A DNA stretch of 6,360 bases from JAYKJB01 sp035284745 [NCBI: Candidatus Sericytochromatia bacterium] (lineage in GTDB: Bacteria > Cyanobacteriota > Sericytochromatia > S15B-MN24): NCBI GenBank assembly GCA_035284745.1, contig JAYKIL010000032.1, positions 1-6,360 of the forward strand. The letters are read 5' to 3'. Positions 2,541 to 5,436 of this stretch are shown piece after piece. Made by a program: the position numbers and the translations under genes. The notes below the pieces were generated by a model. It was not told the DNA's origin. It searched no databases and was given only the letters and a program-made list of their open reading frames with translations. Positions within the stretch are counted from its first letter, which is position 1. Each line of letters begins with the position of its first letter.

Positions 2541-2571
2541 TCCCCCTGCTGAGAGCAGGGGGATTTTTCTT
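2541..2571 (+). terminator. Intrinsic terminator of the atp operon
   Basis: TCCCCCTGCT (2541-2550) pairs perfectly with AGCAGGGGGA (2554-2563) across a GAG loop, giving a 10-bp GC-rich stem (the innermost pair may open). It is followed at once by TTTTTCTT (2564-2571). It lies 28 bases after the atpC stop, the expected place to end the atp transcript and insulate the ribosomal genes downstream. Confidence 0.93.
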
Positions 2572-2656: not shown

Positions 2657-2685
2657 TTGACACCCTTTCAATCAGTGTGTTAACT
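2657..2685 (+). promoter_or_regulatory. Probable sigma70-type promoter for rpmG-secE-nusG
   Basis: A perfect -35 box TTGACA (2657-2662) is followed after 17 bases by TTAACT (2680-2685), a weak -10; with an 18-base spacer, TAACTT (2681-2686) is preceded by TG and would be an extended -10. Transcription should start near 2691-2694. It is the best promoter candidate between the atp terminator and rpmG, where one is expected. The perfect -35 and the position support it; the poor -10 lowers confidence. Confidence 0.6.
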
Positions 2686-2705
2686 TGAATGAGCACTTGT
2701 TAGCG

Positions 2706-2788
2706 CCTGACGATTGATACTTGGGATCTTACAGGGGGTTGCAAACCCCCTTTTTGATGACACACCGTTGGTGTTTCCCGTCGTCAGG
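2706..2788 (+). ncRNA. Candidate structured leader RNA upstream of rpmG
   Basis: Seen in sequence: CCTGACGA (2706-2713) is exactly complementary to TCGTCAGG (2781-2788). Between these arms lie two more hairpins, AGGGGGTT/AACCCCCT (2733-2751) and ACACC/GGTGT (2762-2774, loop GTT). Together they could fold as a three-way junction starting about 14 bases into the transcript from the promoter at 2657. The rpmG Shine-Dalgarno region (2804-2814) lies outside the fold, so any control would be at transcription rather than direct sequestration. The central helix is also a terminator-type hairpin. I do not recognise a named RNA family. That it is functional is inference. Confidence 0.4.
2733..2755 (+). 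terminator. Terminator-like hairpin in the rpmG leader (possible attenuator)
   Basis: AGGGGGTT (2733-2740), loop GCA, AACCCCCT (2744-2751), running into TTTTT (2751-2755): an 8-bp stem with five pairs being G-C, and a short U-tract ending in GATGA. It lies only ~45 bases after the inferred transcription start and ~70 bases before the rpmG start codon. Either it ends a very short RNA, or it attenuates the rpmG operon, or it backs up the atp terminator. The U-tract is short, so read-through is likely. Confidence 0.65.
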
Positions 2789-2822
2789 ATGAGTTTTTCT
2801 CCGAAAGGATGAGGTTACGACC

Positions 2823-2972
2823 ATGCGGGTCATCATCACGCTGGCTTGCAACGAATGCAAGCGGCGCAACTACGTCACCACTAAGAATAAGAAGACAACT
2901 CCGGACCGATTGGAAAAAAGTAAGTATTGCCGGTTCTGCCGCGCACATCATCCGCACAAGGAAACCAAATAG
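2823..2972 (+). CDS. rpmG: 50S ribosomal protein L33 (bL33), zinc-binding form
   Basis: bL33 is a small protein of the large ribosomal subunit near the exit (E) site. The 49-residue product [17 protein letters not shown]...KETK is a near-consensus member in length and sequence. Two CxxC pairs, Cys9/Cys12 and Cys36/Cys39, mark the zinc-ribbon (C+) form rather than the cysteine-free paralogue used under zinc limitation. The ATG is supported by GGATGAGG (2807-2814), with GAGG 8 bases upstream of the start. It is the first gene after the promoter at 2657 and precedes secE by 30 bases. The order rpmG-secE-nusG is widespread in bacteria, but tuf and tRNA-Trp, which often precede rpmG, are not in the 310 bases upstream. 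Confidence 0.96.
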
Positions 2973-3002: not shown

Positions 3003-3362
3003 GTGGCCCACATGGATGATCCAAAGCTTAAAGTACTGTCTCAAGAGCGTCTTGGAAGTTCTGAAACGGCGGGAGGCGGTTCAGCCCCCGATGTCGATGA
3101 TGAAGCCCGAGAACGGTCTTTGCAGTTGGGCGGCGGTATCCCTGGTGGTCGCTTTTTCGGGCGCTATGCAGCGTTTATTCAGGAAGTCCGGCTGGAACTC
3201 GGCAAGGTGACTTGGCCGTCGCGGAAGCAGGTGGTGACTGAAACCATCGTCGTGCTTTGCGTTGTTGCCTTTTTTACCTTGCTGATAACTGGGGTGGATA
3301 ACGTGTTTGCTACGTTTTTCAACTGGTTGCTGTTCGGCAAGCAGTTCCCCTGGCAGAGCTGA
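3003..3362 (+). CDS. secE: Preprotein translocase subunit SecE, single-membrane-segment form
   Basis: SecE clamps SecY in the SecYEG channel that exports proteins across the inner membrane. The 119 residues hold the family core: an amphipathic helix with FIQEVRLELGKVTWPSRKQV (residues 58-77, including KVTWPSR at 68-74), then one hydrophobic segment of about 80-105. The ~50 residues before the core are hydrophilic, acidic and glycine-rich (GGGSAPDVDDEARERS), with no extra membrane helices; many single-span SecE proteins total only 60-80 residues, so this tail is long. The GTG at 3003 is preferred over the ATG at 3012: AAGG (2991-2994) is 8 bases from the GTG but 17 from the ATG. nusG follows after 28 bases, the usual partner arrangement. 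Confidence 0.93.
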   Translation: MAHMDDPKLKVLSQERLGSSETAGGGSAPDVDDEARERSLQLGGGIPGGRFFGRYAAFIQEVRLELGKVTWPSRKQVVTETIVVLCVVAFFTLLITGVDNVFATFFNWLLFGKQFPWQS

Positions 3363-3390: not shown

Positions 3391-3912
3391 ATGGCCAAAA
3401 AGTGGTACGTCATCAACACATACTCGGGTTACGAAGACAAGGTGAAAGAGAACCTTCTTCGACGGGTAGAAACGATGAATCTGACAGACCGGGTCTTCCA
3501 CGTGGAGGTTCCGGAAGAAACCGTCGTTGAGATCAAAGACGGGAAACGTGTTGAAAAGCCGCGCAAGGTTTTTCCTGGCTACGTGCTCGTGGAAATGGAC
3601 TTGGATGAAGAGTCGTGGCACGTTGTGCGGAGTACGCCTGGTGTTACAAGCTTTGTGGGGAGCAGTGCTAAACCTGTTCCGCTTCAGGAGCGGGAGGTCC
3701 GAAAAATCTTTCGGCGGGCGGCGAGTAAGCAGAAAGTGCAGATTGATTTGCACATGGGAGAGCACGTCAAGGTTATCTCCGGTCCTTTTGCCGAGTTTAG
3801 CGGTGAAATTATTGAGATTAATCCTGAGCGTGGGAAACTCAAGGTATCGGTATCGATCTTCGGGCGTGCGACACCCGTTGAGCTGGAATTCTCTCAGGTC
3901 GCGAAAGTTTGA
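3391..3912 (+). CDS. nusG: Transcription termination/antitermination factor NusG
   Basis: NusG binds RNA polymerase, modulates pausing, and links it to Rho or the ribosome. The 173-residue product is near the usual ~175-180. The N-terminal NGN domain (about 1-110) opens with MAKKWYVINTYSGYEDKVKENL and contains RKVFPGYVLVEM (58-69) and RSTPGVTSFVG (80-90); the C-terminal KOW domain (about 122-173) has GEHVKVISGPFAEFSGEI and ends LEFSQVAKV. The frame is open upstream to 3307, overlapping secE, but family alignment fixes the start at ATG 3391. The AGGAG (3374-3378) lies 12 bases from this ATG, longer than usual, so initiation may be modest or coupled to secE translation. No second NusG paralogue is seen. 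Confidence 0.97.
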   Translation: MAKKWYVINTYSGYEDKVKENLLRRVETMNLTDRVFHVEVPEETVVEIKDGKRVEKPRKVFPGYVLVEMDLDEESWHVVRSTPGVTSFVGSSAKPVPLQEREVRKIFRRAASKQKVQIDLHMGEHVKVISGPFAEFSGEIIEINPERGKLKVSVSIFGRATPVELEFSQVAKV

Positions 3913-5252: not shown

Positions 5253-5271
5253 TTTTTGGTAAAATTTTAAA
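5242..5271 (+). promoter_or_regulatory. Possible internal promoter for rplJ-rplL
   Basis: TGGTAAAAT (5257-5265) is an extended -10 (TG, one base, then TAAAAT, five of six to consensus), placing a start near 5271-5273, exactly where the L10-leader structure begins. No good -35 is spaced for it. Alternatively TTAACA (5242-5247, overlapping the last rplA codons) pairs with TTTAAA (5266-5271) at 18 bases. E. coli has a separate promoter between rplA and rplJ, so one here is plausible. Confidence 0.45.
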
Positions 5272-5272
5272 A

Positions 5273-5331
5273 CAACCATAGACAGCAGGTCGTCCAAAAG
5301 ACGGTAATGGGTTTCCCGCCAGCCGAGGTTG
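5273..5331 (+). promoter_or_regulatory. L10 leader RNA (autoregulatory L10-L12 binding site)
   Basis: This region fits the known ribosomal protein L10 leader upstream of rplJ. CAACC (5273-5277) pairs with GGTTG (5327-5331); the conserved ATAGACAG (5278-5285) faces GCCGA (5322-5326), as in the kinked stem bound by the L10(L12)4 complex; CGTC/GACG (5291-5294, 5300-5303) caps one arm and GGG/CCC (5309-5317) makes a small second arm. The inner helix GCAGG/CCAGC (5285-5289, 5319-5323) carries an A-A mismatch where relatives usually have a pair. In B. subtilis this leader controls rplJL by transcription attenuation; the terminator at 5354 suggests the same here. Confidence 0.85.
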
Positions 5332-5353
5332 CGGTTTTTACAAGTTTTTCGTT

Positions 5354-5400
5354 AGCGAGAGCTTGGACTGCAATTGGCGTCCTGCTCTCGCTTTTTCTTT
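5354..5400 (+). terminator. Intrinsic terminator/attenuator upstream of rplJ
   Basis: AGCGAGAGC (5354-5362) pairs perfectly with GCTCTCGCT (5384-5392), and the stem continues with GGAC/GTCC (5365-5368, 5379-5382) and a small GC/GC tip around CAATTG. TTTTTCTTT (5392-5400) follows. This is a strong intrinsic terminator lying in the leader of rplJ, 67 bases before its start codon, so it most likely works conditionally as an attenuator coupled to the L10 leader. It might also limit read-through from rplA. Confidence 0.88.
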
Positions 5401-5436
5401 GAGTCAGCTCGCAACTTTTGCGGGAAAGACTCAAAG
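5397..5436 (+). other. Second long hairpin in the rplJ leader
   Basis: CTTTGAGTC (5397-5405) pairs with GACTCAAAG (5428-5436), nine uninterrupted pairs, and inside it CTCGCAA (5408-5414) pairs with TTGCGGG (5418-5424, one G-T pair) around a CTT loop. Its 5' arm shares bases with the U-tract of the preceding terminator, and it ends 19 bases before the rplJ Shine-Dalgarno site. It could stabilise read-through mRNA, present the ribosome site, or be a processing signal. Confidence 0.55.

Follow-up and report, generated by a model that had tools for sequence, protein, structure and literature searches.

A candidate transcription attenuator in the leader of rpmG-secE-nusG in a Sericytochromatia lineage

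Why should a signal that stops transcription stand between a promoter and the essential genes behind it? This question is raised by positions 2657-2822 of the window, by which we mean the whole stretch of 6,360 nucleotides analysed here (contig JAYKIL010000032.1 of a Candidatus Sericytochromatia bacterium). The window carries on one strand atpG-atpD-atpC, rpmG (ribosomal protein L33), secE, nusG, rplK, rplA, rplJ and the start of rplL; atpC and the genes from rpmG to rplJ were confirmed by NCBIfam, and the remaining genes were named from their reading frames. An original prediction had placed in the gap between atpC and rpmG a promoter, a terminator-type hairpin and a three-way junction enclosing it. 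We consider it about an even chance (roughly 0.5) that 2657-2822 forms the leader of an rpmG-secE-nusG(-rplK-rplA) transcript and controls it by transcription attenuation, most likely with feedback by a product of the operon. The features discussed below are collected in Table 1.

Table 1. Positions of the leader features and the adjoining genes in the window
Feature	Positions	Strand	Basis
Intrinsic terminator of the atp operon	2541-2568	+	strict terminator match at 2541-2563; counterpart in G001 and G008
Promoter: TTGACA 2657-2662, 18-nt spacer ending in TGn, TAACTT to 2686	2657-2686	+	conservation
5' box AGCACTTGTTAGCGCCTG, from the presumed transcription start	2692-2709	+	AGCACTTGTYANNGCCTG in the window, G008 and G001
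Possible antiterminator: CUUGU 2696-2700 with ACAGG 2731-2735	2696-2735	+	invariant strands; putative
P0, possible local hairpin of the box: 2697-2703 with 2707-2713	2697-2713	+	prefix folds of the window and G008; putative
P1: CCTGACGA 2706-2713 with TCGTCAGG 2781-2788	2706-2788	+	fold, shuffles, comparison with G008
Junction helices: GGG 2723-2725/CCC 2777-2779 and AUC 2726-2728/GAU 2756-2758	2723-2779	+	kept in G008
Terminator hairpin 2733-2740/2744-2751 and T tract to 2755	2733-2755	+	strict match; compensatory changes
P3 hairpin: 2762-2766/2770-2774	2762-2774	+	counterpart in G008; absent in G001
rpmG, ribosomal protein L33 with CxxC pairs	2823-2972	+	NCBIfam TIGR01023 above cut-off
secE	3003-3362	+	NCBIfam TIGR00964 above cut-off
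nusG	3391-3912	+	NCBIfam TIGR00922 above cut-off

Terminator, promoter and 5' box in three genomes

Among 18 genomes of the class, a NusG match was found in 16 and an L33 match in 15. NusG of the window is 98% identical to that of G008, 90% to that of G001 (MAG RYN_339, locus L001) and 78-82% to those of loci L002-L005. The layout of the window, namely atpC, terminator, promoter, leader terminator and rpmG-secE-nusG, recurs in 2 of the 18, G008 and G001, as judged partly by eye, and the comparison of the leader is one of three sequences, two of them close. The window and G008 agree at 102 of 137 aligned leader positions; for the 60 nt that precede +1 the figure is 36 of 62.

At the level of sequence, the terminator is the solid part of the observation. 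The predicted hairpin is present with the letters and positions originally given, its 8-bp stem being followed by a T tract of only five T and then GATG, and it sits between the promoter and the start of rpmG. Under a strict rule (at least 7 pairs, at least 4 of them G-C, a loop of 3-6 and T at four of five positions), which overlooks terminators whose loops exceed this range, that of the L10 leader among them, only this hairpin and that of the atp operon were found on both strands of the window. A strict terminator arose in 0.6% of shuffles of the window leader (0.6%, 1.0% and 0.2% across the three leaders), while a looser rule gave no excess in the window, with 7 found against 8.1 expected. 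The hairpin reads AGGGGGTTGCAAACCCCCT in the window, AGGGGGTGGTGCACCCCCT in G008 and AGGAGGGTTGCGACCCTCTT in G001. All 8 pairs are kept in G008, one of them by a compensatory change; in G001 two compensatory pairs and one G-U are seen by eye when the loop is taken to be one base longer, whereas an automatic alignment breaks 2 of the 8 pairs there. The covariation proposed as a check on this helix is thus present in G008 and, with the longer loop, in G001.

The leader hairpin is not needed for atpC, because a separate terminator of the atp operon sits upstream; a hairpin with a T-rich tail 3' of atpC is also found in G001 and G008. We considered the leader hairpin as a second terminator of the atp operon and rejected it, as the promoter and the +1 box intervene, likewise in the two relatives.

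The predicted promoter has its TTGACA at the expected place and its elements are kept in both relatives, the features common to the three genomes being TTGAC[AG], an 18-nt spacer ending in TGn, and TA...T. The support for this promoter is its conservation; a consensus scan of the window does not list it, because its -10 element matches at 3 of 6 positions. The same scan found no other promoter-like site on the + strand of the window, a weak result, as it misses the conserved promoter too. RNA synthesis probably starts near A2692, and from this presumed +1 onward an 18-nt box, AGCACTTGTYANNGCCTG, is common to the window, G008 and G001, being retained in G001 although most other leader sequence there differs. 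That the box does not vary suggests that some factor or pairing reads it. When up to one mismatch was allowed, the box pattern matched in 44 of 386 genomes of the phylum and a reversed control likewise matched in a number of genomes; exact matches were confined to G001, G008 and one place in G346. The context of seven box loci outside the leader, judged by eye, included no rpmG leader, and several of them resemble coding sequence.

Two other candidates around the box were discarded. One would join CACTTGTT to AACAAGTG, located upstream of the promoter; its upstream letters were not seen in G008 or G001. The other was a leader-peptide attenuator: by eye, neither ATG nor GTG occurs from +1 to the terminator hairpin in the three genomes, the TTG codons present there are without a Shine-Dalgarno sequence, and no conserved short ORF with a ribosome-binding site precedes the terminator.

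Pairing partners of the box and the order of folding

The 8-bp pairing P1 and the small hairpin P3 are present as originally described, and the three-way-junction shape is indeed the minimum-energy fold of 2690-2825 (-42.2 kcal/mol), with pair probabilities of 0.91-0.94 for P1. The leader is only moderately more stable than its shuffles (z -1.89; 9 of 200 at least as stable). In a post hoc test with 5000 dinucleotide shuffles of the flanks, 0.7% gave an enclosing Watson-Crick helix of at least 8 bp; one of 8 bp came up in 0.3% when the downstream part alone was shuffled. The earlier estimate of one in eight for a chance match was thus too pessimistic.

The comparison with relatives is less favourable to P1 than to the terminator. 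By hand alignment, 7 of its 8 pairs are identical in G008 and one is broken, and the 2706/2781 helix shows no compensatory substitution; the minimum fold of G008 is without P1, whose pair probabilities there are 0.23-0.61, and the 7-bp helix occurs in 12.7% of shuffles of its own flanks (4.0% with the downstream part alone shuffled). In the same hand alignment, the GGG/CCC helix of the junction is identical, AUC/GAU has become GUU/GAU by two one-sided changes, and P3 shows one compensatory and one one-sided change. Both P1 and P3 are absent from the leader of G001, in which TTATTGC of the box pairs with GCAATAA just past the T tract, forming a 7-bp helix of other letters (4.5% of flank shuffles; 6.4% with the downstream part alone shuffled). 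Pairing of the box with sequence behind the terminator therefore recurs by different letters, the window and G008 not being independent of each other.

Counted from the end of the T tract, P3 occupies nt 7-19 downstream and the 3' strand of P1 nt 26-33. Because the 3' strand of P1 and P3 exist only after read-through, the three-way junction cannot decide termination. The proposal that it is the attenuating structure did not survive this, nor the finding that G001 has neither helix, and we reassigned it as a fold of the read-through RNA.

Two pairings of the box could form before the terminator is complete. One is P0, which is no more stable than shuffles. The other is CUUGU:ACAGG, both strands of which are invariant across the window, G008 and G001. 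In prefix folds of the window its probability is 0.53-0.68 at RNA lengths of 44-50, with a partial return to 0.32-0.48 at 58 and at most 0.16 at 60-64; elsewhere it reaches 0.11-0.35 at lengths 44-50 in G008 and 0.19-0.48 at 26-32 in G001. The pairing is outcompeted upon completion of the terminator. Structure in the first 41 nt does not exceed that of shuffles, of which 45% are as stable in the window and 86% in G008. CUUGU:ACAGG may act as an antiterminator in the three genomes, and on these grounds we keep it as a weak and putative one.

Known leaders and distribution among relatives

Searches of Rfam with the window (up to E 5) and with loci L087 and L001 (up to E 1) gave no match at the leader, and none of the known Rfam ribosomal-protein leaders, that of L10 included, has a covariance match at 2657-2822. 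The original prediction of a control element ahead of L33/SecE/NusG that could not be named agrees with this and with the retention of promoter, box and terminator in two relatives.

Two known leaders are of a comparable kind. The nusA leader of Bacillus subtilis is described as a site of intrinsic termination stimulated by NusA, negative feedback being its proposed logic; like the putative rpmG attenuator, it places an intrinsic terminator in the leader of an elongation-factor operon, but the operon and the factor differ. The rplJL leader (RF00557) is described as attenuated by L10(L12)4 through an antiterminator/anti-antiterminator arrangement, and resembles the rpmG leader as an attenuator-type leader of a ribosomal-protein operon, whereas the rpmG leader has no covariance match and its CUUGU:ACAGG antiterminator is only putative. 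The gene cluster of the window itself carries a candidate L10 leader ahead of rplJ, at 5258-5406, scoring 39 bits, just under the Rfam cut-off of 44; further matches score 43.3 bits in L087 and 37.7 bits in L001, and the L10 leaders of Sericytochromatia seem to fall under the curated threshold of Rfam.

A covariance model, R1, built from two sequences with P3 omitted, gave hits in 6 of the 18 genomes of the class with E no higher than 5: at 1.1e-26 in G008, at 2.94 in G001 through its box, and, weakly, at 0.18-3.5 in G007, G014, G016 and G018. The full fold was found in the window and G008 only. We also surveyed 73 of 80 nusG loci for hairpins (7 with a nusG start less than 600 nt from the end were dropped; the L33 start was recognised in 65 loci, and G009 and G011 fell outside the scan). 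A hairpin with a T-rich tail lies at most 100 nt ahead of rpmG in 4 of the 73, L001, L040, L042 and L050, of which L040 and L042 share one element whose hairpin directly follows TTGACA and could be part of a promoter. Judged by these sequences, leader terminators at the rpmG position are sporadic. The element of L040 and L042 (a Dormibacteraeota MAG and a Chloroflexi MAG) is a near-identical palindrome about 55-70 nt ahead of rpmG, and L050, from an Omnitrophota MAG, has two tandem T-tailed hairpins ahead of rpmG at about 1960-2050.

A different structured leader, a hairpin of GGATCC...GGGTCC type followed by a T/A-rich stretch, was seen ahead of rpmG in G004, G005 and G011, and a similar one in G006 ahead of a tRNA gene, secE and nusG, where no L33 match was found; the coordinates are L004 4130-4198, L005 4130-4198, L006 4462-4520 and L134 1436-1500. 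Its consensus fold has 11 pairs, of which 2 are compensatory and 6 broken or gapped in one genome (covariation term -0.06). That G006 keeps such a leader although no rpmG was detected there is a weak argument for secE-nusG over L33 as the source of the acting product. Both relatives of the window have a second L33 gene without CxxC pairs, at 1501-1644 of L144 (G001:C422) and in L145 (G008:C105), beside which Fur-like frames in L144 and a His-rich membrane-like frame in L145 were noted by eye; these genes and their neighbours would fit what we presume to be zinc-regulated L33 paralogs.

A word comparison with rRNA loci (16S and 23S) from other genomes of the class gave no clear sign that the leader mimics rRNA. 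G001 and G008 yielded no 16S gene, and detection in the class gave 16S in 1/10 and 2/8 and 23S in 2/6 genomes. One of 20 tests fell below 5% (23S loci including flanks), that of the 11-mer TCCGAAAGGAT at 2799-2809 near the ribosome-binding site, which matches the 16S of G011 (3.4% of shuffles). The same TCCGAAAGGAT is a possible GAAA-loop hairpin over the rpmG ribosome-binding site, with CCGAAAGGA kept in G008.

Proposed attenuation and the readings that compete with it

An attenuator layout, with promoter, leader terminator and gene in conserved order, is present in the window, G008 and G001, and a terminator between a conserved promoter and essential genes would make their expression depend on read-through. 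RNA polymerase would start near A2692 and make the terminator hairpin (RNA nt 42-60), with the outcome that either a leader RNA of about 60-64 nt is released or transcription reads through into rpmG, secE and nusG. Termination in vivo is a prediction, and the most likely control would be negative feedback in which NusG or a ribosomal protein, as a product of the operon, targets either the conserved 5' box or the elongation complex when it is at the terminator. Three partners are open to the box: its own letters (P0), the terminator's foot (CUUGU:ACAGG) and, once polymerase has read through, sequence past the terminator (P1); which of them it takes could set termination. The attenuator reading is favoured because synteny, promoter, +1 box and a compensated terminator are kept in G008 and G001, and the separate atp terminator and the nusA and rplJL precedents also speak for it; it is weakened by the small number of sequences, the weak antiterminator, the two pairs broken in G001 by the automatic alignment, the tract of five T, the confinement of the layout to 2 of 18 class genomes and the scarcity of hairpins close to rpmG in other loci.

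A simpler possibility, which we regard as rather unlikely, is that the terminator is partial and unregulated, reducing expression of rpmG-secE-nusG by a fixed factor with no effector, while the box serves initiation or promoter escape. The hairpin is complete and strong unaided, no stable antiterminator faces it, and the box starts at +1, where the initial transcribed sequence matters; but a fixed brake on essential genes would be set more simply at the promoter, and the box spans 18 nt and is retained in G001. It is also conceivable, at a distinctly lower probability, that the functional part is the fold of the read-through RNA, which would protect the 5' region of the mRNA or bind a ribosomal protein controlling its stability or translation. 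The rarity of an 8-bp P1 among shuffles, the post-terminator pairing of the G001 box by other letters (0.064 of shuffles) and the junction helices and P3 kept in G008 speak for such a fold, yet P1 is without compensatory change and outside the minimum fold of G008, P3 is missing from G001, R1 finds the full fold in two genomes, and P1 ends about 17 nt short of the likely ribosome-binding site, leaving the site uncovered.

We think it very unlikely that the terminated product, about 60-64 nt long, acts in trans as a small RNA, with the terminator simply as its 3' end. It would have its own promoter and terminator and a conserved 5' end, but rpmG-nusG would then require another promoter, of which none was seen, and its position ahead of rpmG is constant in the three genomes. 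Antitermination of the boxA type, in which the 5' box would recruit NusB-S10 and other Nus factors to carry polymerase through the terminator, is the most improbable of these readings. The box does resemble boxA/NusB-S10 sites in that it too is short, conserved and placed where the RNA of a Nus-factor operon begins, and boxA ahead of translation genes together with Nus autoregulation is described in PMC5725501. The rrn leaders of G011, G015 and G016, however, carry by eye a boxA-like element, GATC[TCA]TTGAAAA, with which the letters of the box share little, and a boxA identity is disfavoured because of this lack of likeness, the leaders compared being those of other class genomes.

We return to attenuation as the preferred reading. 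Taken together, the sequences point to a real, conserved and narrowly distributed attenuator-like leader that is absent from Rfam and known from three genomes. More tentatively, and as a claim that we would hold with low confidence, it may be a new class of leader in which switching of the 5' box among three partners lets NusG or a ribosomal protein autoregulate rpmG-secE-nusG-rplKA by attenuation. No attenuator ahead of rpmG-secE-nusG was found described in a literature search from which most subscription journals were out of reach, so that absence is not proven. A conserved stop signal at the start of an RNA resembles a brake to be read through, which is an ordinary form of control in an unusual place. 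If the attenuator reading is true, the leader terminator would determine how much NusG, or how much of the ribosomal proteins encoded alongside it, is made in this Sericytochromatia lineage, and the feedback would be testable with one short template. Should the leader prove to be a new class, it would place a feedback loop on a universal elongation factor in deep relatives of cyanobacteria.
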